A DNA stretch of 64,000 nt, taken from assembly GCA_963920765.1 (NCBI GenBank), contig OY987244.1:3412501-3476500 (forward strand). The letters are read 5' to 3'. Below are positions 160-63,668 of this stretch, piece by piece (position 1 is the stretch's first letter; the number at the start of each line of letters is the position of its first letter). Under the pieces are notes generated by a model. That model was not told the DNA's origin, searched no databases, and saw only the letters and a list, made by a program, of their open reading frames with translations. The stretch is from Ulota crispa. Lineage: Eukaryota; Streptophyta; Bryopsida; Orthotrichales; Orthotrichaceae. The translations under genes were made by a program, and so were the position numbers.

Positions 160-393
160 TTAACCCTTAAACGTCCATAGGGCATAGTATATATGCTGAC
201 GTATAATTGTCATTTGCTACCAGTAAGAAATTTTAATTTGGGATCTCAAGTAGCTCACTAAAACTGCATTGATTTATTCTCCAACTTCTTTGTTGATCTC
301 AAATGTAGTAAAGGTGTGGATCCATTCCAAATACAAGAAAAATACCCCTTATTGTACTGGTCGGAGCGGCATGCTCACACGTTTAGGGGTTAA
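160..393. mobile_element. 232-bp-class TTAA MITE (piggyBac-like ends), copy 1
   Basis: Both ends carry TTAA. The left end reads TTAACCCTTAAACGTCC and the reverse complement of the right end reads TTAACCCCTAAACGTGT, so the inverted repeat is about 13 bp including TTAA. The total is 234 bp, the same length class as the copies at 25846, 41214 and 43802, which also have a palindromic CATATGTA/TACATA-like stretch in the first 60 bp. There is no coding capacity. TTAA duplication with CCC-starting ends is the known signature of piggyBac elements; the assignment here is inference from the termini. Confidence 0.75.
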
Positions 394-3300
394 CCTGATG
401 ATCTCAAAATATCAAAAATTAGTAAACCCTCACAACTATCAAGACCCAATGTAACCTTATTCTTTTTACATTTAACGATTGTCTGGAGGATGGTAAGTTG
501 GTAACTTAATGCCAATTGAATTATGAAGATGTAACAGCGGGGTTGGTAGCCTAAAAATGTGGTTATTTAATTTTAAACAAATCCTACAACTTTGAAAGAA
601 AAATAGTATTGAAACGAGATTTTAGACGAAATTTAAAGAAAAACGTATGCTGTTTCGTAGTTTAGGTAGCTTTTATGAACCGCAAAAAAAAATCAGCAAA
701 CATCAAAATCCCACTATCTTTAAGTATTAAATAAAATTATACTAGAATTCGGTTTTACTTAATTAAACCTCTAACACTATTATTTCTAAGTAAAAAATCA
801 GGTTCTTGCCACCCTTTTTATATTGCTACAATTCATGTGGTCCCATCTTGGGATATTTGAACTGTTTTTATTTGACCTGAAGGAGTTAGATAATTCTATA
901 GCCAACATGAGCGTGAAAAGTATGGCAAATTTTGCGTTTTAGGGACTTGTTTTATTGAAGATTAAGGCATCTCTTGACGTTGGGGGGATTGGGTTTCAAA
1001 TCTGGAAGAAAAAATTATAATATTTTCTGGAGGCATTTTATGGAAGCAGCAACATTTTTGCATAATTTTCAAGTTTTCTTTTAACAGACTAAAAAGTTTT
1101 GTGCGCCTAGCAAGGTGTAGAAAACATCAAGCATGGGCGCAATGGGTTCTTACGCAAGAGATTGAGAAAACAAAAAATAAAAAACAGCATCCAATAAACT
1201 TTAAAACCATCCCAAGATATCCATATTTTGTTGTTGCAAAGGGGTCATAGAGATATCCCAAGTTTGAAGAGAAACTTGAAGAGGTCAAAAACTCCTATTG
1301 TATGTAAATGATGTACTTTCAATGGCATATCTACATTGTCGGATTAATGAGGTTATCTGCTTGTTTAATCTGTATGTGCAAACTTATTATAAGCAAGGTC
1401 TAGGAAGAACCGATTGCTAGTTCAATGCTAGCAGATTGAAATGGGAAAAAATCAATTGTCATTTATAAACTTTGTCTAAAAACTGGTAAAAAATCTTTAA
1501 AATTTTACTTATAGTATGAAATAGAGAAAATAACCAAAAGAGCTCCTTGAAGGAAATTTACCAAAAAATCTCAAATATTTCCGAGTCCCTGATTATAAGA
1601 TCCAACCAACAGACTCCTAGTTTATGAGCTAGGATATCTAAACACACAATATACATTTAGCCTTATGAAATAGCAGAAGAGTTGGTTAAATTATGAATCT
1701 ATTGGATAAAAATTGACCATTTTTTAGAAAGTAAAAAGTTATATGCAATATACAATGCATGCATCTGAAAAATGGTTAAAAATTTGGTAATGAATGAAAT
1801 ATGTTGGCCTTTAGCAAGTGAAGATCAAAATCTCCTTAGATGCTGCTGCTATTGTAGAAAAGGAAAAATTAGGCTATCATAAATTGTGACAACTTACTAA
1901 TAGTATTAGTAAGAACTAATTCTAAAGGATGTGATGGTTGGGTTTAATGTTGTTAGTTTAGATTGGCAAAGAGAATTTGAATGTGGTTTGTAGCATTATC
2001 ATATTGTTTTTATTGTCATATGTTATGAGGATGGTTTGGTTCTTTGTTCTACTATTGTAAATGTTCCAATATACATTTGTGAATGTCCCAATATAGTGCA
2101 AGTACAAGAAGACAAATAGATACAATGTCGATTTAATTAAACAAATGGCATTTTGCATCAAGGTTTAGTCCTTTATTTCCTCCTCTTGTTGTTTGAGCAT
2201 CACTGTTTTTTCTATTGGAACTAATGTAAATACAATGTACTAAACTTACAATACTTTAATTATAATATTGCAAGCAATAATAGCTCCTAAGAATTTAATA
2301 GTATGCTTCTATTTTTTTTTAATAAGAAACAATTTCTAAGGAAACTGATCATAAAAAATGAATGATGTTGTTCTCTAGAAAAAAAACATGTACACCTTAG
2401 AACTTTTTAACTAGGCTTGTGCTAATCATCATAAATTTAGATGAACTACTAATACCTTTTTTTCACATATTTTTGTACAAAGACAAGGAGTCTCAAAGAA
2501 AGCATTTTCTAATTTGAATGATGGAATTTCAAAAATTTGTGTTATCTTTATTCACAAAGTGCTAGAAGTTCCACATTGTTAACTAGAAGTTGGATAGACA
2601 ATCTTTTTTTGGTTTTGAGACTCAATCAAAGTTGTTTGAACAACTCATTAGTTGTTGATGTGAAATGATGAACACAAACAGTAGATGTGTTCATTCTATG
2701 CATGCAATATTTGGATTAGAGTCTCTTGGAGTCCCTTAAGGTAGTGAATCCTCTTTGTTGTATTATGTTTAAAAAACTACAATAACACAAAAAAAACCCT
2801 AAACATCTCCAAAGTTTGGATGCAAAAAAGAAATTACATTCAATTTTTAACTTAATCCAACCGTTAAATTATCTCTGACATTCCTTGGATCATTAAAATT
2901 TTAACAACAATAAACTAACTCGGTGTCACTTCAATTACTCACTTTTTGATACTATTTTTTTATAATCTTTATAAAAAACATCACATACAAATGTCCTAGT
3001 AAAAAGACAACCTTTAAAGGATACTTCTCAAATATAAGGTATTATTTTAAACTTGACATGTAAATCTTGTGATCCCACCAATAATTAGATAAGCATCCTA
3101 TCATTTAATAAAGGACCCCATATTTTAACAACATAGCTCACCGCAACCAAACAATAACTTCACCACACTCTATACAAATCCTTGCCATGTTATTTAATAT
3201 TGAGTTCCCCATTTGTGCACTTCCATTGGCATCCTTTAAGTTTTTATTTTGCTTTCTCATCTCCCTCAAAAAATAGTTATCCAATGATTCTTTCAAATTT

Positions 3301-5793: not shown

Positions 5794-6309
5794 GGGAATT
5801 GATATACGCACACCGAGGGATTGATTTGCACACTTGGAGGTTGATTTGCACACTTGGAGGTTGATTTGCACACCGTGGGGTTGATTTGCACAACGGGGGG
5901 TTGATTTGCACACCGGGGGGTTGATTTGCACACCGGGGGGTTGATTTGCCCACCTCTCGAGGTAGATTTTTTATTTCTACTATCAAAAAGCTGATTTTGA
6001 GAATTTTGGATTCAGATTTGGACTCAGAGACCATGATTTAATCTAGAACCATACAAAAATGTTGCAATTTAACTACACATGAAAAAGTTTATCTAGGGGA
6101 AAATTATTACTTTTACTTATGTTTGTAAAAAAAATGGCTTTTTCATTGAGTGTTGTTGAATTGCAAATTTTTTATGGTTCTAGACTAAATCTTGGTCTCT
6201 AAGTCCAAATCCAAATTCAAATTTCTCAAATTCAGCTTTATGAAGGTAGAAATGTAAAACTCACCCCAGTGTGCAAATATCAACCTCCTAGTGTGCATAT
6301 ATCAGTTCC
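5794..6309. mobile_element. Foldback element with tandemly expanded left end
   Basis: The element starts GGGAATTGATATACGCACAC and ends GTGCATATATCAGTTCC. Positions about 5955-6070 and about 6160-6285 are long inverted arms (the GGTAGA...CTACC boundary, then the TTTTTGAT, GAGAATTT and TGGACTCAGAGACC blocks and their complements). The element at 10199-10611 has the same structure and related arm sequence. The left subterminal part has been amplified into 20-bp tandem units. Confidence 0.7.
5801..5960. repeat. 20-bp tandem repeat, about 8 units
   Basis: The units are exactly 20 bp. Six from 5821 to 5940 have the form TTGATTTGCACACyGgGGGG, with only the last 6-8 positions varying. A diverged unit sits on each side. 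Because 20 is not a multiple of 3, the array leaves all three minus-strand frames open, producing cysteine/glutamine-rich pseudo-proteins that should not be annotated. The repeat unit derives from the terminal region of the foldback element that contains it. Confidence 0.9.
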
Positions 6310-7297: not shown

Positions 7298-7300
7298 TTA

Positions 7301-7611: not shown

Positions 7612-7614
7612 TTA

Positions 7615-10198: not shown

Positions 10199-10611
10199 GG
10201 GAATTGATATGTGTACCACACCCTTTGAACTACTGTACCACATCTTCGGGGTAAATTTTAGATTTCTACCATCAAAAAGTTGAATTTGAGAATTTGGAAT
10301 TCAGATTTGGACTTAAAGATCATGGTTTAGTCTAGGACCACAAAAAAGTTGTAATTCAACAATATCCAATTTTAAAAAATTATCTTTCTTTACAAACAAA
10401 AGTAAAAGCAACACTTTTCTCCCTAGCTAAACTTTTTCATTGGGTGTTGTTGAGTTGCAACTTTTTTTGTGATCCTAAACTAAATTATGGACTTTAAGTC
10501 CTAATTTGAATTCCAAATTCTCAAATTTAACTTTTTGATGGTAGAAATCTAAAATTTACCCCGAAGGTGTGGTACAGTAGTTCAAAGGGTGTGGTACACA
10601 TATCAATTCCC
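10199..10611. mobile_element. Full-length foldback MITE, 413 bp
   Basis: The whole element is close to one palindrome. The left end GGGAATTGATATGTGTACCA is the exact complement of the right end, and pairing continues through CACACCCTTTGAACTACTGTACCACA into the arms, leaving a central loop of roughly 80-100 bp near 10370-10440. Arms are related to those of the element at 5794. Its transcript would fold into a hairpin of about 150 bp. No confident target duplication. Confidence 0.85.
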
Positions 10612-13024: not shown

Positions 13025-14251
13025 TTAACCCCTAAAGGACCAAGTGGCTGTTCAATAGCCATTTGAGAACTTGGGTATGGTCATATGGAGTTAGTTTTTA
13101 TTGGATGTTCTCAAAATTGTTACACAAGTTGCAAACATGTATCCCCCTAGTGGAAATGTAATTTTTTCCCCAATCGGATGCCCGGTTCAAAAGATGCCAC
13201 CCAAAAGAAATTGGGTGGCTTAGTAGTTTGATCATCTTTGGAGAATCTTATGCTAAAACTCTCATCAACTTTTGAAATTTGGCAAGTATGTAACTAAAAA
13301 ATATGGTGCACAATTGTCAAAAAAAAATTTGAGCTATCACATCACATTTTGAAAGGAGTCAAACTTTGTTAACCCCTAAAGGACCAAGGAACAGGATATT
13401 TGTTAAATTGGGACAAAACGGTCATTTTGGGACTTTTTGAAAGTTTGGGGTAATCACCCCAAAGCAGGCCCCCAATCAAGCTCCAATGTTTTTTTGGTAC
13501 ACATGTCCTCACTTGAGAGGAGGAATTTGTGAGGGAAAAAAATTTAGTGGCTTAGATTGAATTTGATATTTTTGAATCTAGTTTAGGGTGACTATTTTGG
13601 ATTGAGGTGGAGTACAAAATGGTACCTTTGTTTTTCCCAATTTAATGAATATCCCATTAAGGGTGTTTTTTGAGGAAAAATCTCAGAAACTGCCAATTTT
13701 TAGTGCATTGCCCAAAATTGAAAATAAAAACTATTTTTTCTCATTTCAACCGTACAAAAGTGTGTAAAACAAATAAATTGATATGTGCAAAAAAAAACCA
13801 GCCCATTTGACCGCACAAATTGTAAAATTATAACGTTTGAAAAGAGAAAAACAACTTTTTTTCATTCCTGCAAAACAATGTCAGTAAACTTTGAGGCTTC
13901 CTAGAGTAAAATTTTTACTCTACACAAATTTGAGCTTTTTGACCACTCACATGTATATGATGTTTAGGTTCACTCATGAAAAATTTGAGATGCAAATACA
14001 AAATCTAGCTTATTCTAAATCACCCTACAATGCAAGGAGGTTTAGTGAATTGGCAATATATAAATCATTCTTTCATGACTTCTTGTGCAATGAGAAAGTC
14101 TTTTATTCAAAATCTAAACAGTTAAAAGTTAGAGACAAACGTTTGGAATATTTTTTAAAAAAATTCAAGAGCTTTGGGTTTATAGATTGAAAGATAATAT
14201 GGCTTGAAGTTAGAGGAATTTTTTTTTCTTCTTGAAACTGCCCCAACATAG
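13025..14251. mobile_element. Two stacked left ends of TTAA elements
   Basis: TTAACCCCTAAAGGACCAAG occurs at 13025 and again at 13369, both in left-end orientation. A third left end starts at 14252, yet only one right end (15157) follows. This implies nested or successively truncated insertions whose right ends are lost or shared. The DNA between them is AT-rich and noncoding; the open frame at 13891-14190 starts at TTG and looks like chance. Confidence 0.55.
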
Positions 14252-15157
14252 TTAATCCCTAAAGGACTAGACCCCCTTTTTTAGAAACATAGTGGTTTTG
14301 GGCAAAAGTACCTGTGATTGGAGATTTTCATATTTTAGGCTGAAATTTTAATTGAATGTGGGGACAAGGTTTATCTTTCATATGCACTAAATTTCATCAC
14401 ATTTGGAATTATGAGTAAAAATTTATGGCCTAATATGTTTTTTTTTACGTTTGTCAGGCAGCCTAGGCAGATTTTTAAAATTAAAAAAATAAAATAAAAT
14501 TGGTATAGGAGATTTATGTGAATGTAGGAAGCTTTGATTCATTTTGTTTTGATCAATGACATGAAAGTTACGAGAATTTTTTGTTTGCTGGCAGTTATGG
14601 TTTCTCTACTCTGAAATAAACTTTGAAGTCCTTTATTTTACTCAATTTTCAACATTTTGGAAAAAAACCAAAGGATGAATATTGTTTATGAAAACGTTAT
14701 GACCATTGGGATTTGCATTTTTCATTTCCATAATTAAATTCTTAACAATTTAGTGTTTTGAATCATTTTCTACTTCTTTTTACTTACTAATTTTTTTCCA
14801 TATGTTATACAACTCCAAATGATTTGAAACTTTTTTGACATGTACTTAACTTAAGTGGAATAAGGAATTTAGAGAAGCACCACCTACATGGCATTTTTTC
14901 CTTAGGAATTTCACCTTCTGAAGGGTAGCTGCTTTGTTTTTCATGAGATGTTTTTGAATATTCAAACCATTCTAACTTCCAATCCACGCGGTGGAAAACT
15001 CTGAATTTTTTTCCACATCTTCTAAAACTATTCTTCTACAAAATCCTACGGTTACATATGCATAAAATGTTTTTGTTTTCAAATTTGGTTGATGCTCTAA
15101 AAATGACAATTTTGAAAAAAATTTGGTGAAAACTTTGCTTGCTCCTTTAGGGGTTAA
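14252..15157. mobile_element. TTAA element, family B, copy 1 (reverse relative to 39579)
   Basis: The left end is TTAATCCCTAAAGGACTAG and the reverse complement of the right end is TTAACCCCTAAAGGAGCAAG. It is 906 bp. Its interior matches the elements at 39579 and 60856 in inverse orientation: shared blocks include ATTGGGATTTGCATTTTTCAT near 14707, AAACTTTGAAGTCCTTTATT near 14620 and AATCCTACGGTT near 15044. It is noncoding. The ends and TTAA target suggest a piggyBac-like non-autonomous element. Confidence 0.75.
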
Positions 15158-15753: not shown

Positions 15754-16684
15754 TCAACCTTTTGAGGACCAAGCAATCATTCTTTGGTTGTAGATAGTGG
15801 TTTTGAGAGTAAAACCGCTCAACAATATGGAAACTAGTCTTGAAGAATGCATGTGGTCACAAGAATTTTTCATCCAACTAAAAAAATAGCAGTGGAATTG
15901 GGTATGTGAGTTGAAAAATAGTGATGTTTATACACCATGGTCTCAAAATATGTATCCATTTTTTGATCAAAGATGGATGAACGCAACAACATAATAAATC
16001 AAATATCCAAGAAGAATGCCACATTTCAATTGTGAGCTCCAAAGAAAATTCAAATTGCTTAAGAAATATGCTCATATTGTTTCTCTATATGGTAGCAATA
16101 TAATTGTACAATTTGAAGATATATTGAAATGGTGATGTTATTTGATCTTTAAAATTTGTCATCCTAGATTTAACGGCCAATTTTTTGATTGTTTTCACCA
16201 ATTGGATTTTCTATGACATTTATCAAAAAAATTACAGAACCATTTTGGGATAACAAGTAAAGTGGGATTTTGGACCCATTTTGTCCACTTAGCTGTACCT
16301 TGTGATTGTTATTTTTATTCATTTTGCGTGAAACTAGTCTTATTGGAAGGGTGGAGAACCTTGCTTTTTAGAAATATAAGGCTCTTCTCAAGCAGAGCTT
16401 GCATTAGTTGCATGAAGCATTAGCAAATAAAATCACACAAGCATGAAAAACTAAAGATTTCCCACATATGGGGTGATATGGCTCACTCAATTCATTATAA
16501 CATTTCATCTCCAATGGTAAATATGGTTGAAAATTTGATACTTTACAATAAACAAGATATTCTTCCCAATTATACAATTGGATTATTCAAATTGGATTCA
16601 TATTTGATTCAACTACGCATCCAAGATTACCACCCTTGTTTTTAGTGGATTTAGTGAAAATATGTGTGGTCCTTAAAGTGTTAA
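15754..16684. mobile_element. TTAA element, family A, copy 1
   Basis: The left end TCAACCTTTTGAGGACCAAG is a worn version of TTAACCCTTTAAGGACCA; the reverse complement of the right end is TTAACACTTTAAGGACCACA. It is 931 bp. Read in reverse it aligns with the element at 24935: both share a ccAYCCTTGTTTTTAGTGGAT subterminal block, CAATTGTATAA/TTGTACAA stretches and a TTGTGATT...GGAAGGG core. Noncoding. Confidence 0.7.
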
Positions 16685-17274: not shown

Positions 17275-17311
<37 letters not shown>

Positions 17312-18105: not shown

Positions 18106-18887
18106 TCAACCCCTAATGCCAAGGCGGTCAAAAAAATGTTTGCTACACACCCAAAGAAATGCTATGCAGAATATAAAAAGTTGTTTTACATCTTCTTCTT
18201 TTTTGAAATGTGATCATAAACACATGGTCCATCATGGAAGGCAAAATAATACCTCATTAGATGTACTCATATTTTTGGGTAAGGTAGCAACACCCATAAG
18301 CGCCATTGTCCCCATAACCATCACCTCTAAAATTTTGGAGAATCTATGGAAGCAAACAAATGTAATTACAAGGATGTACAACATGTGAAAATGAAACCTT
18401 AGTGTTGGTATTAGGTGCAATTGCAATTAGCTCTATAAAAATTCAAAACTTATTCTCACAATATCCAAATAATACATGTGAAAGTGCTAACTCATCATTT
18501 TTCTCTTGCTAATAGGATCTTATAATTTGCTAGATGTTTATTAATAATCATTGTGTTCAAAACCCTTAGTTTGACGGTTATGAGTGTTGCTACCTTAATC
18601 CAAATTGTGAGGAGATTCATGGTGTTAGGTCCCATGCTGCACTTTTTACAAATTTCATGAGGGTACTATGCATAGTTGACTTTTGCAACTTTTGTAAACA
18701 ATATTATAATAAGTATGCCCTTGCCACTCCATTGTATAGTGCCCTCCAACAAGTAATTGGGTTCTTGAGTCCTCCTGTTAAGAACTCAAAGACTTGTTGG
18801 AGGCCACTATATAACATTGTAGAACACCATAGAACAATGTACATAGAGTGGGTGGTAGCTATGACCAGCCCAACATTTAGGGGTTAA
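18106..18887. mobile_element. TTAA element, family E, copy 1
   Basis: The left end TCAACCCCTAATGCCAAGG and the reverse complement of the right end TTAACCCCTAAATGTTGGGC share a CCCCTAAATG core. It is 782 bp. The interior (ACACATGGTCCATCATGGA, CTTATTCTCACAATATCCAA and TTTTTCTCTTGCTAATAGGA blocks) aligns over most of its length with the element at 23836. The open frame at 18041-18388 crosses its left end and is a chance frame. Confidence 0.7.
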
Positions 18888-21122: not shown

Positions 21123-21566
21123 TTGACCCTTAAAAGCCGGGTTGGTCATTGTGACTACCCTTCTATAGTAACTCTATAGCGCTCTATAGTGATGTGGCAA
21201 GTACCTACCAATAATAACATTTTTTTTCAAAAGTTGCAAAATTCAATAGTGCATAGTGTAGAGTGCCCTCTTGAAAATTGCAAGAAGGGCAACATGGGAC
21301 CTAACACTATGTGTGTGAATCTTTTCACAATTTGGGTTACCAAAAAATATGAATGAATTTGGTGAGGTTATTTTTATCTTTTCTAGGACCACTTCTAAAA
21401 AACAAATGAAAGACAATTTTTTTCCATCCTACTAAGTATTTTTTTGTTGTCAAGATTGAAGGGAACCAAAAACATCCTTTTTGACTTTCAACTCTAAAAT
21501 ACCCAAGATATCAAATTCTAGTGTAGAAACCACCAAAATTTGGTGCCTTGGGCATTTAAGAGTTAA
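21123..21566. mobile_element. TTAA element, short relative of family E
   Basis: The left end is TTGACCCTTAAAAGCCGGG, followed by TTGGTCATTGTGACT, and the reverse complement of the right end is TTAACTCTTAAATGCCCAAG. The left subterminal GGTCAYwGTGACY block recurs at the right end of the 23836 element. It is 444 bp, noncoding, with imperfect ends. Confidence 0.55.
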
Positions 21567-22562: not shown

Positions 22563-22565
22563 TAA

Positions 22566-22886: not shown

Positions 22887-22889
22887 TAA

Positions 22890-26692: not shown

Positions 26693-26700
26693 AGAATAAA

Positions 26701-30630: not shown

Positions 30631-30655
30631 TTTGTCCAACTTCGCCTACGTGGAC

Positions 30656-38050: not shown

Positions 38051-38071
38051 AAATATGGGGTTCTTGGTTTC

Positions 38072-44637: not shown

Positions 44638-44640
44638 TAA

Positions 44641-46398: not shown

Positions 46399-46401
46399 AC
46401 T

Positions 46402-46576
46402 CACTAGTAGAAAACTGTGTTAGAATCCACCAAAAAATGTAAGGTAGTTTATGTTGAGTTCCATGTTTTTAATGCAAAATTTTGTTGAACAACGCAAAAT
46501 TTTGCATTGAAAACATGGAACTCAACATAAACTACCTTACATTTTTAGTGGATTGTAACGCAGTTTTCTTCTAGTG
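46402..46576. mobile_element. CACTA (En/Spm-like) MITE, 175 bp
   Basis: The left end CACTAGTAGAAAACTG and the reverse complement of the right end CACTAGAAGAAAACTG carry the CACTA start of that superfamily. A 3-bp duplication ACT flanks it (46399-46401 and 46577-46579), the size expected for CACTA elements. The body is almost a perfect hairpin of about 65-bp arms (AATGTAAGGTAGTTTATG...CATAAACTACCTTACATT) around TTGTTGAACAACG. Confidence 0.92.
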
Positions 46577-46849
46577 ACTTGGTCCCATCCCTTGTAGCCC
46601 TTGTCCTCTTTGCAAAACCTCATCACTCTCTTTGGTAGTAAGGAGAATCCCCCTTGTTTTTTGGTCTTACTAACCCCTAGGAAGTTGGATTAAGACCTAG
46701 CGATGCCGCTTTTCCATACTTCCTAGAAGTCATAGTTAGGGAGTTCAATAGTTCATTAAGAGTCCATAGTTAGAATAGATACCTTGTTTCGAGTCCTCTA
46801 GCCCTGCCACACCATTATCATAACTCAAGCGTCCTTACCAGAATAAGCC

Positions 46850-50345: not shown

Positions 50346-53061
50346 TTACGTAGCCCAATTTTTGTTAGTGACTTGAATTTGAGCAGTAGGAATATTAATC
50401 ATGCACTTGATTGTGCCTCTTCTAATTTTGGACTTCCATGCTGTCATCAACATTGTTGTCTCTTCCCATAACAGTAGTTCATTGTCATCAACCTTCCACC
50501 GTAGACCTCTTGCATCATCCCATCTAGTGTAGTTATCCTGAATATCTTGATCTCGTGATGTTGGACAGAAATACTGAATTTGGACATAGTTTGGTTTCTT
50601 CGGGTTTGAATTGGGGTTTGATAAAGCCCTTGCAATCCACAATGGTCAAATGTCACCATCACTAGGTCGAACTGCGACAAAATACCCTTCATACAAGTCT
50701 CGACCCACTCTAAAGGATGGAAGTGGACTTTCGCGCAAAGGGCCTCCATAAGCATCATCTTCACCAAAGTCTTCAAGGTTTTCGCCATTATTTGCAATTT
50801 GATCTGCCATAACTGCCTCGACTTGACTAGATGGCCAAAACCCTTCCTTCAAAACTGTACAGATTGGTAGGGGCTCTAGCAACGCTCTATTAACCGCTCG
50901 TCAATATTGCACTAAATGTTCATGTCGTCTTCTAAATTCTCTAGTGACATCTTCATTGCACATATTATCCCAATATTTTTGAAACTCGGATAAAATTTTT
51001 TGAATGTTGTCCATGCTTTTCATAGGGATTTGAGTAACTGCTGATGGTATCCCACAAGGCCACAAACTTTGCCCCTCTGAATTTTCCTTCCACAATTTAA
51101 TGCCCCTTCGGTCCTGTCCTAACCACTCTGGATTGGTGCAAAGAAGTTTATACTTCATGACTAGACATCCACTTGAGTCTAGGTAGAACTTCACTTGTTG
51201 TGGCCTTGTATGACCAACAAGGATTTCATCACCGTCATGATATTTACTAGGGATGAAATCCTTGGAATCAGAAGCTCTCTCTATGAGGTGAGGTATAACA
51301 AGAACAGATCCTAAATCCATAAAGGACTTCATAAGGGCAGGAATTGTGGGATAATTCTCTTTCTTTAAGAGCATGCTTCATCTACCATATAATGCATTGA
51401 TGTCATCATGCGTATGACCCACTATCATGATATTAATGAACACCTCTTGGAATATCTTCTTTGCAACAAGCAAGGACCAGAAATAAGAAACAAACCTATT
51501 CTTATTGTCACCGATTGCGTTATCCATGTGTACCTGCAAAATAGGTGGCAACGTTGTTGCTGGGACTAAATTCTCTAGTTGTGGCGGTAATGATCTTTCG
51601 CATATTTCTGCTTCAGATAACACTGCAATAAACAAAGGTGATGACTTGGACCCCACAAACAATTCCCTAGAAGACGACTTTGGTGGCAACTCTAAATCTT
51701 GTAATAGTTTGGCCATGAACCCAATGGTGTAGTTTGAATTGTGTGAAAATAGATCCAAATTGTAATGTGCATAGCAAACATCACCATGGCCATGAGCAAA
51801 CATGCCGGTTATAGACACAGGCAACTTCATTAGGCCATCAAGATCTTTACTCTTGTGAGAGAAGACTAGAGAAGCCATTTTTGCATGATCCATCTTGTCA
51901 TGCGTTACTGTCAATATCTCATGTGGATAAGTATGAGAACAATTGCGATTAGCATAATAAAGTTCTCTATACGCACAAGCATTGGCTAAATGCTTTTGCA
52001 ACTTCAATGCACACTTCATTGCTTGCTGAGTTGTAGCAATAGCACTCTTCAGAAGTGAATTAAGCTTATCACAAGTAGAACACTTAGCAAAATTATCCCC
52101 AGGCCTCTTCTTGTCAAACTCAGGAAAGTTTCTTGATCTAATCTTGCTCAAGTTTGATGTAGAGACATCTTTCAATCCAAAGGCAGCATTTGCTGTGTTG
52201 ATTTTTTGAATGACATTCTTCCAATTGAATGAAGCTGGCAAAATGCGGGACACCATCTTCTCCCATGACTTCAAAGTCCGACTACAATAAAGCATATAAT
52301 CCGCCGTACTTTTAAGAATGCACCTCATTGTAGCAGTGGCTTGGGCAGTGTGTTTCTTTGTCTTCATCAATCCAGTGTTTCCATGAGCTCGTGTTTGCCT
52401 GCCTTCATTTGCATAGCCTTGATAGCGATTGAACGTGGCTTCTGGGACACTAGCAACATGCATCCATGCTTGCACACATGTATCTATTCCTTCGATTGTG
52501 ACAATTTTTTTCCAGCAATAGTTATGAGTGAATTTGCCTATGAACATCAGTCTTCATGAAAGCTCTAAACTTGAACGTGGTTTCTTGGTACATGTGTTTG
52601 CGGAAAGCTCAAATTTTCTCTCTAGGAAACTGCTGAATGCAACTTTTGCGGCAACATACCTTGCTATTGCAAGAGTTGATAAACTCCTGGGATAACAAGT
52701 CCTTTGATTTAAGAGCACTTTTGCATGGAGGATTTCTAATGTTGCATGAATACGATCGAAAAGATGTTGCAGACACAGGATTGATAATATTGGCCTGCAT
52801 CCGATTGAAATTGTCGACTGTCTCATGGTTCTAGAGACTTGCTCTACAACAATGAACTAAGTGAATTGGTCACACAAGGAGAGAGTAAATTGCTTCTTTT
52901 GGTAGGTCATGTTGTGAATGAGTTTGGTAAATGTGAAGTATTACGTGAGTATTGCCAAGAGGTGCCTTTGCACTAAGCACAAAAGCTGAGTCCACATTCT
53001 GCACTATACCTTCATTGACAAGCACGTCTTCAGCATTAAACAACGTGACACACCTTCGCAA
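50346..53061 (-). pseudogene. DUF7869-type transposase-like protein, broken by stops and a frameshift
   Basis: Five collinear open segments read as one protein of roughly 880 codons. Near 52650-52800 there is a Cys-rich segment (SKVCCRKSC). The central 389-codon frame (52547-51378) ends with a metal-site-like core: QVHMDNAIGDNKNRFV, then IVGHTHDDINALYGR, the signature of the DUF7869 family, thought to have an RNase H-like fold and to be transposon-borne. The C-terminal part (50882-50346) has a BAH-like module (GYFVAVRP..., NYVQIQYFCPTS, MTAWKSKIRRGTIK). In-frame stops lie at 52870-52872, 52831-52833, 52609-52611, 51378-51380, 50901-50903 and 50646-50648; a frameshift lies between 52609 and 52547. 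Not functional as it stands. Family naming is from memory; the collinearity and stops are seen directly. Confidence 0.7.
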
Positions 53062-53153
53062 TCCGGAATATTGACTTTCATCCCATTAAAAATCTCCAAT
53101 TCATCTTCTGAAGAATCTATGTTGTTTGTCACGGACATGAACGGATTGACTTA

Positions 53154-53310
53154 GAAGGTTCTAGAAGGTTCTAGAGGATTAAAAGGATTTGGAAGGTTAA
53201 AAGGTTCTAGAAGACTTTAGAAAGATAAAAAGTCTTAGAAGTTTCTAGAAGGTTGGAAGCCTCTAAAAAGTTGAAAGCTTTTAAAAGATTGGAAGCTTCT
53301 AGAAGCTTAA
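53154..53310 (+). promoter_or_regulatory. Heat-shock-element-like array in U3
   Basis: 53154-53171 reads GAAGGTTCTAGAAGGTTC, four perfectly alternating nGAAn/nTTCn pentamers with correct 5-bp spacing, the binding form for trimeric heat-shock factors. Further TTCTAGAA cores occur downstream in U3 (in AGGTTCTAGAAGAC, AGTTTCTAGAAGG and AGCTTCTAGAAGC). The TATA box follows about 90 bases later. Heat response is inference. Confidence 0.6.
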
Positions 53311-53396
53311 AAGCTTCTAGATGACTGGGAGCTTTTAGCTTGAAGGCATTTAGAAGCTTGGAAGCCTCTAGAAGGGTTGAGGCCTCAACCTTTGGA

Positions 53397-53404
53397 TATA
53401 TATA
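53397..53404 (+). promoter_or_regulatory. LTR TATA box
   Basis: TATATATAGG, conserved in the 3' LTR (GGGTATATATAGG). It lies 31 bases upstream of the segment complementary to the primer-binding site, matching usual TATA-to-start spacing. Confidence 0.7.
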
Positions 53405-53613
53405 GGAGTCAAACCTGAGAGGTTCCTCAGTCTCGACAACTCATCTTGCCTCTTTAGTCTTTGGCATTCAAGCCTTAGCTTTTTGTCTTGCTGTTATCTT
53501 GTATCACTATTATCTGAAATACATTTTCAGCCTTAGTTCTAGTATTCCTCTGCATTCTTGTCTTAATTCTTGACTCCCAAACTTTGTTCTGGTCCTTGAA
53601 TCCGTCCATGACA

Positions 53614-53627
53614 ATTTGTCGAAACTG
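53614..53627 (+). other. Self-priming type primer-binding site
   Basis: ATTTGTCGAAACTG directly follows the 5' LTR. It does not resemble a TGG-starting tRNA 3'-end complement. It pairs with 12 of 14 positions of CAGTCTCGACAACT (53428-53441), the predicted 5' end of the element's own RNA. This is the arrangement known from Tf1/sushi elements, where the RNA 5' end folds back to prime. Confidence 0.65.
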
Positions 53628-53854
53628 CCTTTAAATATCATCAAAACTTTCTGATTTTAAATAGAGCGTGGATTACCCCTCCTTTTGAAATTATAAAATG
53701 TCTTAGGAGTTGTGGATTATCCACTTCTAGGTTAATGGTGTTCTGCTATTACAACATTTTTTTATTTTATTTTATTTTTTTCAAGTATGCGCACTTAAGT
53801 TATTTTCAATATATTACTAGACTAATACTTGTTCATTATACAAGAAGGAGGTAA

Positions 53855-54800
53855 AATGGTGGTGAGTGATTTGAAGCTTGACATTATTATGTCTGCAATT
53901 ACTTCCATGACATTGAGCGCCAACAAATGTTCAAACAGACCGAAGATCTCAAAGCAAGATTTTCTGGCCTTGAAGCAAGACTATAACAAGCTATGGAGCA
54001 AGGATCTGTTGCTGCACCTACATTGACTATTCAAGCCAATAATCTTTCAGATTCTATGCTTCAGGCTTCAAGTTCTAGCAAAAGCAAAGAATCCAGGGTC
54101 AGCCTTTCCGAAAAATTTGACGGCAAGTGTTCCAAATTTTGTGGTTTTGTCAACCAAATTCGGCTTATTGCGCTCCTTCAACCACAACAATATTCCACAG
54201 ACGGAGCTTGCATTGGATTGGTAGGGACATTATTATCCGAACAAGCGCTTTTTTGGTTTGCACCGCTTTTTGAGAAAAATTCTCTAATACTCAACAATTT
54301 TGAAGCATTTCTGGACGCATTTGGAGAAACATTTGGCGAACATGACAAAATACGTTATGCAACAACAAAAATCCAAAGCTTGCAACAAGAACGGCGTTCA
54401 ACATCAGTCTACGCTTCCGAGTTTCGTCAACTAGCATGCGACATCAATTGGGAAGAGCAAGCTTTAATAAGCCAATTCTATTATGGCTTACGGGACAAAA
54501 TGAAAGATTTATTACTTTCATTACCAGATTCTACAATGTTGAACGATGCTATTAGTCAAGCTATTAAATGCGACAATCGGTTATTCAAACGACAACTAGA
54601 TAAACGAGGCTGGACTACGTTATGACCGCATAATAGTTGCTCTGCATTTTCTTCAACTTCAAGTATTGGCAATCGGATAGAATCAAAAAACATGCAAATT
54701 GATGGAGTTCGATTCAATCCTCTTAAGGAGTAAAAAAAAAAACGCCGACGCGAAGAAAGATTATGTCTCTATTGCGTAAAAGAATGACACAAGGTTAGCA
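53855..54800 (+). pseudogene. gag: gag pseudogene (sushi-like Gag with zinc knuckle)
   Basis: The start is probably at ATG 53855, with a frameshift and a TAA before the long frame 53993-54625. That frame holds the Gag core (EKFDGKCSKFCGFVNQIRL, ALFWFAPLFEKNS, VYASEFRQLACD, YYGLRDKMKDLL). After TGA at 54623-54625, another frame shows a CCHC zinc knuckle near 54760-54805 (CLYC...HKVSNC) in which a TGA replaces the residue before His. Its normal role is RNA binding and particle assembly. Confidence 0.8.
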
Positions 54801-54984
54801 ATTGTTTTGAAAAGCAGCAACGCACGATGCAACTTCGGAGCACAAAACATGAAAATGACAAAATCTAGCCACAATAGAGACCGTGCGGCTGGATTCGGCA
54901 ATATCATGAATATCTTCATGTTCTGTACTATTCGCAAATCCTATTCTTTGTTTTACTGTACTCATACATTTGGATTCAAAAAAT

Positions 54985-55310
54985 ATTAAAATCCAAGCCT
55001 TAATTGATTCAAGAGCCTCAGCTTGTTTCAGTGATGAATTTTTTGTGAAACATCATAAAATTTCTAATATCCAAAAATAAAAAGCCGTTCACGTTAAAGT
55101 TATTGATAGACGACCGTTATCTTCTGGCGATGTTAGCCATGAGACAATTCTTTTACAAACAATAGTAAAAAACCATAATAACCATGTAATCTACAGCATT
55201 ATTTGTTTTCCGTTTAGTCTTGTGATTTTAAGACTTTCATGGCTTGAAAAATTTAATCTTCAAATTGATTGGACAAATTGTAGTATTACTTTTTTACTTA
55301 AAAAACCTTA
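54985..55310 (+). pseudogene. pol: Retroelement aspartic protease remnant
   Basis: The ALIDSRASACFSD segment near 54998-55035 is the retropepsin active-site motif with Gly changed to Arg (usual DSG). A TAA follows about 13 codons later. The C-terminal part (VILRLSWLEKFNLQIDW) resumes in the frame 55222-55632. Catalytically dead as it stands. Confidence 0.7.
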
Positions 55311-55449
55311 TACAAGTACGTCAATGATTACAATCAAAAATCCTTCCAGCCAGAAAACATCAAAACCTTTATTTCTTGGAGTTCAAACATTTATGGAAGC
55401 CGCTAAAGCCGCTGATATATTTGTGGCTTATGCAATTCCAAAATTTGAG

Positions 55450-56290
55450 CAAATCACTACAATAACTTTGCTTCTAGAGGAGTACAAGGAATATCAAGAT
55501 GTTTTTAAGAAAAAAATGCAGATATTTTGCCCAAGCATCGACCATATGATTACGCAATTGACTTTCAAAATGATGCTTAACCACATTTCAGTCCCATATA
55601 CAACCTGTTGCAAAATAAGCTATCTGCATTGAAGGAATATCTTGATAAAAATTGGGCAAAAAACTTCATCCAACACTCCAAATCTCTAACTGGTGCACCT
55701 ATCTTGTTTGTGAAAAAAAAAAAAAATGAATCCTTACATATGTCCGTGGATTACTGCGGGCTCAACAAAGTGACAATCAAGAATCAATATCCCTTACCTC
55801 TAATCAGCAAACTTTTGGATCAAATCGGACAAGCAAAAATTTATACCAAAATTAATTTCAGAAGGGCCTATAATCTTGTGCAAATTAAAAAAAGTGACGA
55901 ATGGAAGACTATTTTTCGAACAAAGTATGGCCATTTCAAATATAACGTCATGCCTTTTGGACTTGCAAATGCACCAGCTATTTTTCAACATCTCATGAAT
56001 GATATATTCAGAGAATTTTTGGACGATTTTATTGTTTGCTACTTGGACGACATTCTAATATATTCCAAGGATATAGTTCAATATAGAAAACATGTAAAAC
56101 TAGTACTTGAAAAGCTTTGCAATACCGGCCTATACGCTAAACTTGAAAAATGTGTTTTTCACACTATTGAAGTGGAGTTTCTTCATTACATTATTTCGAG
56201 CAATGGCATTTTCATAGATTCCAAAAAATTCAAACTGTATTCAACTAGGCAACTCCAAAAATGGTACGCAATATTCAATGTTTCCTAGGT
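55450..56290 (+). pseudogene. pol: Reverse transcriptase domain
   Basis: The N-terminal part is at the end of frame 55222-55632 (LLEEYKEYQDVFKKK), then shifts into frame 55608-56288. Recognisable motifs are APILFVKKK, the first Asp motif as KINFRRAY (usual Asp is Asn), VMPFGLANAPAIFQ, and YLDDILIY with the catalytic YLDD at 56040-56051. The C-terminal thumb begins in a third frame at 56261. Confidence 0.88.
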
Positions 56291-56880
56291 TTTGCAAATT
56301 TCTATCAAATTTTCATCAAAAGTTATTCTCAAATTGCTGCTCCACTTATACGGTTTACATGCAAAGATAAATTGCAGTGGAGTCCAGAAGCAGACACGGC
56401 ATTTCAAACATTGAAGCAAGTTTTTACTACAGCTCCAATATTGGTCCATCCGGACCTTTCTAAACCTTTCTTTATGGAGACAGATGCTTCGGATTTTGCA
56501 TTGGACGTACTGTTATCACAGCAAAGAGAAGACAGAAAATTTCATCTAGTTGTTTTTCATTCAAAGAAATTCAGCGCTGCGGAGATCAATTATGAAATCC
56601 ACGATAAAGAGTTACTTGCTATTGTGGACTCTTTTCAGGAATGGCGTTATTTACTTAAAGGCGCCGCACATCAGGTGACAATATACACGGATCACAAAAA
56701 CCTCGAATATTTTATACCCACTCTTATTTTAAATTTGTCGACAAGCCTGTTAGAATATGTCTTTATCTAAGTTTGATTTTGACATTATACATTGACTAAG
56801 AAAGCTACAAGGGTTATCTGATGCTTTATCCAAAAGATTCAACTTTATGCATGAGGAAGTGAAAGCAGCATATGTCCAAT
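56291..56880 (+). pseudogene. pol: RNase H domain and connection
   Basis: Frame 56261-56770 shows the CFLGFANFYQ connection and the RNase H acids in METDASDF, NYEIHDKELLAIV and YTDHKNLEYF, so its active site looks intact. Stops follow at about 56770 and 56881. The expected linker (DALSKRF) is seen in another frame near 56822. Confidence 0.85.
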
Positions 56881-56885
56881 AACGG

Positions 56886-58090
56886 ATGGCGCTTTTGAAG
56901 CCTGAATGCCTTCGTTCACGAGCAACTCAAATCTCGTTTCTAGTTGATTCCAATTTTTTTGATCAAATCCGAACAGCTTCAGCTACAGATGCTTTAGTAT
57001 TTAATATCAAGCAACGTTTCATCAACACCACGGAGGATTCTAGCAAATTCAAAATTAAGAGAGAATGTCTATACTTTAAAAAACACCTCTATATTCCTGA
57101 CAGACCACATTGCCTTCAAGTCATGCAAGCACGCCACAATCTTTCAGCCGTTGAATACTTTGGATTCAATAAAACGTTGGAACTCATTTCTCGCTATTTT
57201 TGGTGGTCTCAAATGTGGAAGACCATTTAAGACTTTGTGTTATTTTGCAATAGTTGTTCTCGTTCAAAGAATCATTGACATTGACCGTACGGACTTTTAC
57301 AACTTTTACTAGTGCCAAAGTAACTTTGGTCATCCGTTTCTATAGATTTTGTTACAAATTTACCAATTTTGGCTAAATTTGAATCTATTAGTGTGATAGT
57401 CGATCAATTTTCAAAAATGACACATTTTGTTCTATGCAAAAAGACGTTTACGGGAGAAGAAACAGCTAAGCTTTTTATCGACAATATTTATCGTTATCAT
57501 GAATTACCCAAAGACATTGTATCGGACAGAAGACCTCAGTTCATCTCCAAATTTTAGCAATCATTATTCAAGATCTTGCAAGTGAAGATCAAACTTTCAT
57601 CAGTATTTCGATTTCAAACCGATGGTCAAATTGAACGCGTAAATCAAGTTTTGGAGTAATATTTAAAGTGCACTATAAATTATCAACAAGACAATTGGGT
57701 ATCTTTACTGCCACTTGCAGAGTTTGCATACAACAACGGCAAACATACATCAACTCAAGAGACTCCATTTTATGCTAACTACGGTTTTTACCCAAAAATT
57801 AATATGTTACTAGCTTTGAAGGGGGAGAGTCCTGCAGCAAAGAATCTAGCAAGACATCAAAAAGAGTTACATACAATAATGCAAGCTCATTTAAAGAAAA
57901 CTCAAGTGCGTTATAAAGATTGTACCGATGTGAAAAGAAAAGAACAACCAAAGTTTTGAATTGGTGATAAAGTGTGGCTGCTGCGACGTAACATCAAAAC
58001 AATTCGTCATAGCAACAAACTTTATTATTGTTGAATTGGACCATTTGTTATTGAAGAATAAATCAATGCTGTTGTATATCAACTGTAACT
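56886..58090 (+). pseudogene. pol: Integrase (HHCC and DDE core), heavily interrupted
   Basis: The HHCC zinc finger lies around 57135-57255: first His present, second His replaced by Tyr (AVEYFGF), CNSC intact after a TAA. The catalytic core has Asp in VIVDQFSK (57402) and Asp in VSDRRPQF (57525, usual Gly is Arg). The region expected to hold the Glu (GQIERVNQ) is near 57625. At least six stops are scattered to 58090. Confidence 0.85.
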
Positions 58091-58094
58091 ACCG

Positions 58095-58370
58095 ATGTCA
58101 ATGAAGATACATTCCGTATTTCATGTTTCACTTTTGAAAACTTATAGGGAATCTAATTTTTCTGAGAGAATTCAATCTCTGTTGCCTTGCATTGAAGCGG
58201 ATGGTATCCTAGAGTACAAAGTTAAAAAGGTGTTAGATTCAAGGATTTGGAGAGGACAAGTTGAATATTTTATTCATTGGCGTGGATATTCAATTAGTGA
58301 ACGTACGTGGGAACTAACTTCAAACTTAACTAACGCACTTTTGAAGATCTAAGAATTTCATTGTCAACAT
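58095..58370 (+). pseudogene. pol: Integrase C-terminal chromodomain
   Basis: Frame 58095-58352 begins MKIHSVFHVSLLKTY, the GPY-type tail, and then EYKVKKVLDSRIWRG followed by EYFIHWRGYSISERTWE, a clear chromodomain with aromatic cage positions Y, W and W. Chromodomains direct chromovirus integration towards particular chromatin. It assigns the element to the chromovirus branch. Confidence 0.9.
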
Positions 58371-58419
58371 TCATCCAAACCAAAAGCAACGATAGCGTGA
58401 ACTCTTCGAAGGATATCGA

Positions 58420-58437
58420 AGCTAAAAATGGAGGTGA
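58420..58437 (+). other. Polypurine tract
   Basis: AAAAATGGAGGTGA, directly before the 3' LTR, is the expected plus-strand primer site. Confidence 0.75.
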
Positions 58438-58916
58438 TGTCACGGACATGAACGGATTGACCTAGAAGGTTCTAAAAGGTTTTAGAGGATTAAAAAGATT
58501 TAGAAGATTAGAAGGTTCTAGAAGGCTTTAGAAAAATAAAAAGTCTTAGAAGTTTCTAGATGATTGGAAGCCTCTAGAAAGTTGAAAGCTTCTAAAAGAC
58601 TGGAAGTTTTTAAAAGCTTCTAAATGACTAGGAGCTTTTAGCTTGAAGGCATTTAGAAGCTTAGAAGCCTCTAGAAGGGTTGAGGCCTCAACCTTTGGGT
58701 ATATATAGGAATCGAGGCTGAGAGGTTCTTCAGTCTCGACAACTCATCTTGCCTCTTTAGTCTTTGGCCTTCAAGCCTTAGCCTTTTGCCTTGCTTTTGT
58801 CTTGTATCACTATCATCTGAAATACATTTTCAGCCTTGGTTCTAGTATTCCTCTGCATTCTTGTCTTGATTCCTGACTCCCAAACTTTATTCTGGTCTTT
58901 AAGTCCATCCCTGACA
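58438..58916 (+). repeat. 3' LTR
   Basis: 479 bp, aligned with the 5' LTR. It keeps the TATA box and the CAGTCTCGACAACT start segment. GAAGGTTCTAGAAGG heat-shock-type pentamers persist near 58520, but the promoter-distal array is more eroded than in the 5' LTR. Confidence 0.93.
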
Positions 58917-59590: not shown

Positions 59591-59594
59591 AAAC

Positions 59595-60605: not shown

Positions 60606-61027
60606 CAATGGCAATATTAAGAGGTGCATCTCTGATATTAAGAGGTCCAAAGTTAATATTAAAGAGGTCTAGAGGTGATATTAGAGAGGTCAATGTGTGA
60701 TATATAAGAGGTGCATAGGCAATATTAATGAGGTCCAGAGGTGATATTAAAGGGGACTAGAGGTGATATTAAAAAATGCATAGGTGATACTAAAGATGTC
60801 CAAAGGTGATATTACAAAGGCCTACATGTGATATTAAAGAGATCCAAACGCAATATTAACCCCTAAAGGATCAAGCCATTTTTTTTTTCAAAACTAATCA
60901 AAAAAATGGCCACTTCTTGGGAAGCAAGTACAATGGTAAGAAAAAAAGTTTGTTACAACAAATTAACTGTAAGATCTTATAGTACACTACAAGTGGTACG
61001 CAATAAAAAAATGAGCTCAATGTACAA

Positions 61028-61892
61028 AACCCAAAAGAAAGAGTACATAACACCTTTTGAGGCATCCAAAGAAGTATGTATAGCAAAGAATATAATTGAT
61101 ATTTCATTCTCACATTTTTAGTATGCGGTCCTCATGCAATCTTGATCAAGCGTATCAAATTTCATTTACTAAAACCCAAAATCCTATTTTTGGTAAATGG
61201 TTTTGTTTCAAAATCATAGTTTTACAAGAAAGTTGATTAATAAATAGTGGTGATGAATTTTTTAGATTTGATTGCATGGATATGTAGGAGAAATCCATAT
61301 GCACATCTTCCTTTCAAAGAAACTTTTCCAAAAAAATCCAATATTCCTTTTGTAGAGATTTTAATGTTAGAGTGATCATGACCAAACTTAGTAAAATCCA
61401 TATTTCTTCATGGAAACTAGTTTCTGTTATTTGACTCATAAATCATGATTAAGTTTGTACCTTTAAACATGATGATATGTTTTTTTGCCAAATACTAATT
61501 TTCATGAAGAAGTATGGATTTTACTAAGTTTGGTCATGATCACTCTAACATTAAAATCTCTACAAAAGGAATATTGAATTTTTCTAGAAATGTTTGTTTG
61601 AAAGGAAGATGTGCATATGAATGTCTCCTACATATCCATGCAATCAAATCTCAAAAATTCATCACCACTATTTATTAATCAACTTTCTTGTAAAACTATG
61701 ATTTTGAAACAAAACCATTTACCAAAAATAGGATTTTGGGTTTTAGTAAATGAAATTTGATATGCTTGATCAAGATTGCATGAGGACCGCATATTAAAAA
61801 TGTGAGAATGAAATGTCAATTATATTCTTTGCTATATATACTTCTTTGGATGCCATAAAAGGGTGTTATGTACTCTTTCATTTGGGTTCTGC
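61028..61892. repeat. Foldback 1: arms of about 395 bp
   Basis: 61028-61425 pairs with 61498-61892 almost throughout (for example GCGGTCCTCATGCAATCTTG with CAAGATTGCATGAGGACCGC), leaving a loop of about 70 bases. Confidence 0.85.
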
Positions 61893-61895
61893 ACA

Positions 61896-62766
61896 GTACC
61901 CTTGCATATCTTTCTGCCAAGTCCATTCTGTCATTCTAGAAACTTAACATTTTACACAATACAACTGGCAATTTTGTATTTTGAATCATCGGCCTATAAT
62001 TCTTACACAATCCTAATCAAGCACATCAAATTTTGAGTTCCAAAAATAAAAATCCTATTTTTGGAGAATTATTTTAGTTAAAATCATGGTTTTACTTGAC
62101 AATTGATTAAAAAACATTGGTGATGAATTTTTGAGATTTCATTGCACGAGTATTAGGAATCATCCATACACACATCTTTCCTTTGAACTAAAATCTTCAA
62201 AAAGTTTCAAAATTCCTTGTACAAAGATTTTAGTATTAGGCCCATTGTCACCAAATATAGTAAAATAGATATTTCCTTTTTTTAATTAGTTTTTGGCAAA
62301 ATAAACATATTGCTCTGCTAAAAGGTGCTCACTTAACCACAATGTATGAGTCAAATTTTAAAAACTAATTAAAGAAAGGAAATTATCTATTTTACTATAT
62401 TTGGTGACAATGAGCCTAACACTAAAATCTTTGTACAAGGAATTTTGAAACTTTTTGAAGATTTTAGTTCAAAGGAAAGATGTGTGTATGGATGATTCCT
62501 AATACTCGTGCAATGAAATCTCAAAAATTCATCATCAATGTTTTTTAATCAATTGTCAAGTAAAACCATGATTTTAACTAAAATAATTCTCCAAAAATAG
62601 GATTTTTATTTTTGGAACTCAAAATTTGATATGCTTGATTAGGATTGTGTAAGAATTATAGGCCAATGATTCAAAAAACAAATTGCTATTTGTTTTGTGT
62701 AAAATGTTAAGTTTCTGGAATGACATAATGGACTTGGTGTAAAGATATGCAAGGATACTGTATACA
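61896..62766. repeat. Foldback 2: arms of about 400 bp
   Basis: 61896-62297 pairs with 62352-62766 (for example ATTCTTACACAATCCTAATC with GATTAGGATTGTGTAAGAAT), with a loop of about 55 bases. Its arms are diverged homologues of the arms of foldback 1. Confidence 0.85.
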
Positions 62767-63668
62767 GAAATAAGTGAGGTATTTACATCTGAATTGCAGG
62801 AAAAAGTTCTTTTTGCTGCTGCCCAGAAATTTCAAGGGGCTTTGACCACTCTTAGAGCAAATAAATTACTGTACACAAAGTGCAAGTTCATTTTTCCCAT
62901 GTAGGAGACCAAGTTAGGTATGTGTAGGAGAATTTTCAAATCGATTTGAACTATGCAACACATGGGAAAAAATAGTAAGTGAAAAGAAGTATAGAATGAG
63001 TCAAAATATGAGATTGTTAAGAAATTAATTATTACAATGGAAAATGCAAATCCCAATGCTTATAATGTTGTCATAAACAATCTACTTCTATAGGTATAGT
63101 TTTTGTCAAAATTATTGAAAACTAATGAAAATAAAGGAGTTCAAAGTTTATTTTGTAGTAGAGAATCCATAATTGCCCTCAAACTAGAACATCTCATAAA
63201 TTTCATCTCAGCGATTGAAGTTCAATGATTTAGAGCTTCCCACATATGAAGAGATCTAAATAACCAATTTTAGAATTTTATTTTTGGAAAATACCATATT
63301 TAGAGAAAGTTTTGGGTCACCCAACAACCCCCCCTCCCCCGAGTAGCAATTGTTATTACATATCTTCTTTGTCAAATGTTAGAATGGCAAAAATTAGATT
63401 CCTGCTTAGCTTTAGGAATTCCTCACCTTCAATACAAGTTCAAAAAATCACATAAACTACATTAGCGTAGGTACATGCTTGAAATCCATTTATCCACTTG
63501 GGAGACAACTAGGCCTTCAAGGGTTACAAAAGTCAAGATGTGATACTAAAGAGGTTCAGAGGTGATATTCAATAAGTCTTGAGGTGCTATTAAAGAGGTC
63601 CATAGGTGATACTAACAAAGTCTAGAGGTGATATTAAAAAGGTTAAATGTGCTATTAGAGGGGGCATT

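Follow-up and report, generated by a model that had tools for sequence, protein, structure and literature searches.

The stretch analysed here, called the window, comprises 64,000 nucleotides of a moss genome (contig C3:3412501-3476500 of an assembly of 274.8 Mb in 157 contigs). Besides a MED26-like gene, a transposase-like pseudogene and a retrotransposon, it carries many short elements that are flanked by TTAA and end in CCC, and we interpret these as miniature inverted-repeat transposable elements (MITEs) of the piggyBac superfamily. Widely used as a tool for footprint-free genome engineering, piggyBac is known chiefly from animals. Fourteen TTAA-flanked, CCC-ended intervals, with nested inserts counted in, occupy 11,347 of the 64,000 bases (17.7%). 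The original prediction, made from the letters of the window, had claimed at least twelve elements and listed 13 pairs of ends. All 13 pairs are present, and the total is about 14. As we interpret them, the elements and their surroundings are the following.

160 to 393: piggyBac MITE of the ~232-bp class; 234 bp, TTAA on both sides.
13025 to 14255, plus strand: composite MITE, absent from the original prediction; half B at 13025-13372, half A at 13659-14255, inverted.
14252 to 15157: piggyBac MITE, 906 bp; TTAA on both sides, the TTAA at 14252 being common with the left neighbour.
15754 to 16684: piggyBac MITE, 931 bp; family of 24935-25849 (77%); left target-site duplication (TSD) TCAA.
18106 to 18887: element of 782 bp; left TSD TCAA; holds a separate ~316-bp module at 18280-18597.
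21123 to 21566: element of 444 bp; TTGA and TTAA; the end at 21566 resembles an end of the autonomous-size copy L015 (37 bp, 92%).
23836 to 24509: element of 674 bp; TTAA on both sides; ~316-bp module at 24045-24347.
24935 to 25849: piggyBac MITE, 915 bp; terminal inverted repeat (TIR) 15/16.
25846 to 26076: MITE, 231 bp; adjoins 24935-25849, one TTAA (25846-25849) being common to both.
39579 to 40514, plus strand: piggyBac MITE, 936 bp; TTCA and TTAA; homology at both ends with two copies that bear a transposase.
41214 to 41445, plus strand: MITE, 232 bp; TTAA on both sides.
42137 to 43071, plus strand: MITE, 935 bp; TIR CCCTTTAGTGCCCG at both ends, TTAA on both sides.
43802 to 44033: MITE, 232 bp; sits in a local tandem unit, with an empty unit at 43640-43760 that has one TTAA.
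60856 to 63527, plus strand: 936-type MITE, split by nested palindromic repeats (61021-61895 and 61893-62761), in a 22-bp minisatellite.
60614 to 60859: left flank of the 22-bp minisatellite target, which resumes at 63524-63660.

Ends and sizes of the elements

The ends had been described as strictly TTAACCC(C/T)TnAA with the complement at the other side. This form is too strong, as TTAACCC stands at both ends in only 6/13 pairs (160, 23836, 24935, 25846, 41214 and 42137). The TTAA tetramer itself is found at 20 of the 26 outer ends. It is present at both outer ends in seven of the 13 pairs, namely the six above and 14252, and the other six pairs combine TTAA at one end with a one-base variant at the other (15754, TCAA; 18106, TCAA; 21123, TTGA; 39579, TTCA; 43802, GTAA; 60856, GTAA). 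The elements carry a short TIR, its length judged on the first 16 bases, with a CC[C/T]T terminus. Measured sizes fall into classes of 231–234, 444–782 and 906–936 bp, the predicted families having been of about 232, 450–780 and 900–936 bp; the element of 2,672 bp (60856-63527) belongs to the 936 type and is interrupted by two palindromic repeats. These palindromes are adjacent, with an arm identity of about 91%, and a related palindrome is found at L021 5156-6004. Further self-complementary stretches of the window lie at 5924-6300, 10199-10611, 26700-27020 and 46401-46577.

Sites scoring at least 8/11 against TTAA+CCCYTWAANGNCC number 23 in the window, compared with a mean of 3.4 and a maximum of 7 in 30 Markov-1 simulations, a ratio that is flattered because the consensus was drawn up after viewing the window's own sites. 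The bare word TTAACCC gives weaker evidence, with 22 occurrences against a simulated mean of 10 and maximum of 17 (about 2-fold).

In the composite MITE at 13025-14255, another MITE end begins at 13369, between the two halves. L013 holds an uninterrupted copy, and L026 a partial copy at its start. The inverted half (13659-14255) is placed between MITE ends and could be the product of alternative transposition between the ends of neighbouring elements.

Target site and TTAA duplication

The elements target TTAA, which is duplicated upon insertion, as judged from the flanks of copies, from ends counted genome-wide and from three empty-site comparisons. The empty sites are paralogous or repeat-phase loci. 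At the first site, the flanks of the element at 43802-44033, joined with one TTAA, match the empty unit 43640-43760 in 63 of 76 columns, and the alignment scores 49.0 with one TTAA, against 40.5 when no base is retained and 44.5 when eight are. The empty copy at 38080, the second for this site, agrees around the TTAA. At the second site (60856-63527), the phase of the minisatellite is kept best with four bases (14/22 matches), each of the nine alternatives between 0 and 9 bases giving 4–9 matches. The third site is a TTAA inside the composite MITE that is empty in L026 (106/124 columns) and in L013 (99/114); in the window, MITE ends abut both faces of that TTAA. The three comparisons fit a single TTAA, with caveats given below for the copy at 38080 and for the third site. 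The same 22-bp minisatellite, which has TTAA in most of its units, hosts piggyBac ends both at L025 1121-1304 and at window 60614-60859.

Flanks of the 936-bp MITE were analysed in 26 of 40 listed rows (own row included), mostly the best-scoring, with L045 and L046, which are identical including their flanks, counted as one insertion. TTAA is present on both sides in 18/26 copies and at 43 of 52 ends, and an end-finding template without TTAA gave the same flank counts. In one copy, both flanks read TTAG. As this is a direct 4-bp repeat, it is not a palindrome effect, and together with the three empty sites it backs the TTAA duplication that had been predicted. Genome-wide, the exact end CCCCTAAAGGACCAAG occurs 3,614 times, 3,038 of them (84%) directly after TTAA; the exact 20-mer TTAACCCCTAAAGGACCAAG occurs 3,038 times, and its reversed controls 0 times.

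Copy number and age of the MITE families

Five window elements were used in DNA searches of the genome, in which about 40 rows were scored for each, the window's own copy included. For four of the five, at least 39 further copies each were listed, almost all of them close to full length: 39579-40514 (at least 39, 87–89% identity; 8,720 first-look candidates), 42137-43071 (at least 39, 89–92%; 209 candidates), 41214-41445 (at least 42 other matches, 75–88%; 1,758 candidates) and 24935-25849 (at least 39 near full length, 89–91%; 2,407 candidates). For 18106-18887, the only full-length match among those listed was the element itself, the others being mainly its nested ~316-bp module. The properties of MITEs are found: no transposase inside, high copy number and homogeneous length (26 copies of 932–946 bp). 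The mean divergence of these 26 copies of the 936-bp MITE is 6.7% from their consensus (4.8–8.0%) and 11.1% between copies, and on these values they look mostly like one old burst. Two copies 7.6 kb apart, L050 (C2:1480160) and L052 (C2:1487790), differ by 0.3% and have unlike flanks; this pair may represent a recent move of the MITE.

piggyBac transposases in the same genome

The original prediction proposed a search of the assembly for DDE_Tnp_1_7 transposases, and many were found. The PF13843 (DDE_Tnp_1_7) profile gave at least 120 matches over the cut-off, with 116 of 528 first-look candidates scored, and none of 14 control genomes gave a match. The 197 transposase rows merge to at least about 194 loci, a lower bound, same-locus rows having been dropped by eye. 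Most rows contain stops. Compared by sequence with the PDB, a moss transposase matches piggyBac (6x67, E 4.1e-20) and piggyBat (9c0f, E 5.8e-17). According to passages of two papers, piggyBac transposes through hairpins and TTAA overhangs with the catalytic residues D268, D346 and D447 (PMC2533014), and its transposase combines a disordered N-terminus with a Cys-rich C-terminal domain (PMC9499001). The VDE and CDN motifs of this moss transposase align with the first two catalytic Asp of 6x67. The third motif, RGVD..DQ, stands in other alignment rows, the 6x67 alignment ending before it; L010 reads GGVN here. A C-terminal Cys-rich stretch, with a Cys/His pattern recognised by eye, is present in L015, L023, L025, P0241 and P0243. 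A protein search returned 16 relatives, six called "hypothetical protein" and ten without a name; being word-based, it can miss distant relatives.

For end-finding, 20 transposase loci were taken as stretches of 6.5–7 kb. Paired TTAA-CCC ends surround the transposase in six of them (L015, L018, L020, L023, L024 and L027), with 12–15 of 16 identical bases and a spacing of 5,216–5,581 bp. In the fetched stretches, no right end could be recognised for L021 and no left end for L010. L014 and L015 hold the same transposase-bearing element, 99.3% identical over 5,233 bp; the similarity breaks off one base past the element's border at the common end, and L014 is without the other end. Their near-identity suggests recent movement. 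Two further pairs of inverted piggyBac loci were noticed, one with equal scores (G000:C7:18203169-18204302 and 18223004-18224137) and one with nearly equal scores (C10:676128-677234 and 785346-786452). They may be inverted duplications, a possibility weighed below for L014 and L015 as well.

Link between the MITE ends and transposase-bearing copies

When longer stretches were fetched, two transposase-bearing copies were found to match both ends of the MITE at 39579-40514. One (L025/L029/L059) is 8,506 bp long with TCAA at its right end; the other (L057/L058) is 8,255 bp long with TTAA-CCC at both ends. The left ends match the MITE at 75% (366 columns) for the 8,506-bp copy and 70% (486 columns) for the 8,255-bp copy, and the right ends at 84% (187 columns) and 76% (190 columns), respectively. 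In these matches, the sequence beside the TIR differs between left and right end. The element at 60856-63527 shows the same end matches. PF13843 matches lie inside both copies, so that for the 936-bp family a DDE_Tnp_1_7 transposase is found between the same ends. A candidate partner of autonomous size with these ends, as had been anticipated, is thereby represented by two copies, whose frames hold stops.

Conserved upstream module

A domain is common to the open reading frames (ORFs) that precede the transposase in L010, L023, L024 and L027 (21–25% identity to that of L010), and none of the four has a Pfam match at 0.05. This module lies beside the transposase, on the same strand and 1.2–4.6 kb upstream, at about 50 loci. 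A search with the L023 module gave 41 matches, 27 of which have a listed same-strand transposase no more than 6 kb downstream of them (1.5–4.6 kb); random placement meets this spacing rule in 0.27%. For the 40 merged L023-module loci, a comparison with 42 of the transposase rows showed no opposite-strand transposase and none on the wrong side. The L010 module gave 58 matches in 55 merged loci, 25 with a same-strand transposase downstream (1.2–3.9 kb); against the whole transposase list, none of the 55 has one on the opposite strand or upstream. Both sets overlap in at least one locus (C10:4995). The 14 unplaced matches of the L023 set and 30 of the L010 set may be fragments, chance matches at the weak end or neighbours of unlisted transposases. 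A local hidden Markov model finds the module in five fetched loci outside the model (L018, L009, L028, L020 and L013), of which L018 is a near relative of L024; the match in L019 is weak (E 0.002), and in the window the model did not find the module. The module could be either an exon at the N-terminal side or a partner protein in its own right.

Other features of the window

27800 to 30645, minus strand: MED26-like host gene, reading as a plant MED26 (PF08711, E 3.5e-15), exons joined by hand.
50349 to 53055, minus strand: transposase-like pseudogene of the DUF7869 (PF25273) type; its identity to unnamed relatives reaches 67%.
53127 to 58916, plus strand: Ty3-type long terminal repeat (LTR) retrotransposon with LTRs of ~487 bp (90% identical) and gag and reverse transcriptase fragments.

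The best named relatives of the MED26-like gene are from Ceratodon purpureus (72–77%), followed by Sphagnum (38–40%); three unnamed relatives reach 76–84%. On this one gene, the plant host that had been predicted is most likely a moss outside Sphagnum. The Ceratodon relatives bear locus tags with UG and VG, which we take to be sex-chromosome tags, and in some mosses the gene may therefore be sex-linked. The Ty3-type element starts (53127) just past the 5′ end of the DUF7869 pseudogene. A scan of viral contigs for DUF7869 gave no match.

Interpretation and alternative explanations

The TTAA target, the end structure, the high copy number, the transposases in the same genome and, for one family, homology at both ends are observed. 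Our data indicate, with a probability of roughly 95%, that the elements are piggyBac MITEs which have been cut and pasted into TTAA by transposases of larger piggyBac elements elsewhere in the moss genome. These transposases would recognise the MITE ends in trans, and the MITEs would be excised and inserted into TTAA targets with duplication of the TTAA. At least one family, that of 936 bp (39579-40514 and 60856-63527), represents an internally deleted relative of the 8.3–8.5-kb transposase-bearing type, and the other families probably arose in the same way from further members of a diverse piggyBac set. Cut-and-paste transposition in trans is backed by structure; its activity, mobilisation by these transposases and the parentage of the other families are inferred. 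The piggyBac identity given in the original prediction agrees with the transposases in the genome, the end-matching copies and the TTAA evidence alike.

Several observations weigh against this interpretation. The transposase frames of both end-matching copies contain stops, and therefore these copies speak for parentage, not for present activity; the middle of the MITE has no match to either of them. At 14 of the 20 transposase loci, paired ends were not found within the fetched stretch. A search of the window with 21 query proteins revealed no trace of piggyBac coding sequence (best E 0.085; positive control 2e-73). The statement that the window has no transposase thus holds for piggyBac; the DUF7869 pseudogene, however, is transposase-like. 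L014 and L015 are 14 kb apart and inverted, and one end is lost in L014; because of this, the pair may instead stem from a local duplication. Among the empty sites, the copy at 38080 can be aligned only if 29 gap columns are placed downstream of the TTAA, and it scores 56.5 with eight bases kept against 54.5 with four, and the third comparison requires that one half of the host element be inverted.

It is very improbable that the elements belong to another TTAA-targeting superfamily and merely resemble piggyBac. Sola3 and Kolobok would be the candidates, Sola3 being a TTAA-targeting superfamily. Kolobok likewise targets TTAA, and a passage on it gives RR ends (AG, AGG) (PMC6004289), whereas the window elements end in CCC; RR ends at TTAA were not found in them. 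For the 936-bp family, Kolobok is ruled out by the piggyBac transposase carried between matching ends. A second TTAA family may exist beside piggyBac, as the ~316-bp repeat within 18106-18887 and 23836-24509 has GGTAGG ends and TTAA-like flanks. This high-copy repeat, found at 18280-18597, 21837-22152 and 24045-24347 with AAGGTAGGAGCACCC inverted ends, is possibly Kolobok-like.

Still less probable is that the DUF7869 gene of the window is the autonomous partner. Among the ten window ORFs scanned against Pfam, from 25 of at least 110 aa, it is the sole transposase-like gene; its family is repetitive (244 relatives) and has conserved D-rich motifs. Around the window copy, however, there are no consensus TTAACCC-type ends, the nearest listed words being at 48405 (off consensus) and 60856, and no convincing TIR pair was found. 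As the window copy, to which the search was limited, lacks such ends and the copies with the ends of the MITE carry piggyBac and not DUF7869, this candidate was rejected for the 936-bp family; in neither does a DUF7869 gene lie between the same ends.

That chance TTAACCC words were over-read is hardly credible: the small excess of the bare word and the low end similarity in some listed pairs would allow it, but the extended site is about 7-fold enriched (with the consensus fitted to the window), four of five searched elements have their many other copies, the 20-mer stands at 3,038 against 0 for its reversed control, and the TTAA association is kept in 84% of genomic copies.

Comparison with known systems

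The hallmark of piggyBac, as given in a passage of PMC2872659, is TTAA with CC[C/T]T ends and a TIR of 12–19 bp. Like Trichoplusia ni piggyBac and piggyBat, the moss elements have a duplicated TTAA, CC[C/T]T ends, a DDE_Tnp_1_7 transposase and, in several copies, a C-terminal Cys-rich stretch. They differ from the superfamily in their land-plant host and in the TIR, CCCCTAAAGGACC and variants. The moss copies with both ends measure 5.2–8.5 kb, compared with 2.2–3.7 kb for four coral copies in the same passage (PMC2872659). Also unlike known piggyBac, the longest moss copies carry internal repeats, and an extra conserved coding module lies upstream. The CMITEs of Acropora, as far as that passage describes them, are similarly short and gene-less, with CCCTTT-type ends and TTAA, are linked to piggyBac-like transposons in their own genome and nest at internal TTAA; they are about 100 bp long, whereas the moss elements are 230–936 bp and have a plant host (PMC2872659). 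Kolobok/T2-MITE shares the TTAA target and MITE amplification, and differs in its RR ends, as opposed to CCC, and in its transposase, that of the moss being PF13843 (passage of PMC6004289).

piggyBac had been thought to be under-described in land plants. This agrees with the literature searched: no work on moss piggyBac was recognised by title or start of the abstract among the full-text matches listed, subscription journals and Repbase lying outside the scope. In the passage of the Pohlia nutans paper, DNA transposons make up 23.68% and the word piggyBac is absent (PMC9247546); the corresponding term in the Niphotrichum passage is "piggybacking" (PMC10619864). Entries for other land plants do exist: a passage of a review has PiggyBac among seven angiosperm MITE superfamilies (PMC10004981) and a repeat table for the fern Ceratopteris richardii (C-fern) has 1,230 PiggyBac elements with 122,417 bp (PMC6890710). 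Given these earlier piggyBac-class entries from angiosperms and a fern, the moss finding is not categorically new. These listings share the superfamily label, and their passages are without transposase, ends or TSD evidence (PMC10004981, PMC6890710); the moss, in contrast, offers a transposase, ends, TSD evidence and 3,614 exact copies of one end.

The piggyBac of this moss is a transposase-rich, MITE-amplified lineage with an extra upstream module. We lean slightly towards the broader view that mosses harbour a deep, recently active two-part piggyBac lineage, composed of DDE_Tnp_1_7 and a same-strand upstream helper module of ~100–170 aa, which would be the source of thousands of chromosome-shaping MITEs. 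The large, partly young population of transposase-bearing moss elements is a native plant system for study, and piggyBac can be a major source of MITEs in a land plant. The moss ends and transposases may work in plant cells. If the upstream module is part of the machinery, it would extend the piggyBac plan. Our results suggest that the TTAA/CCC repeats of other moss genomes are worth re-examining.

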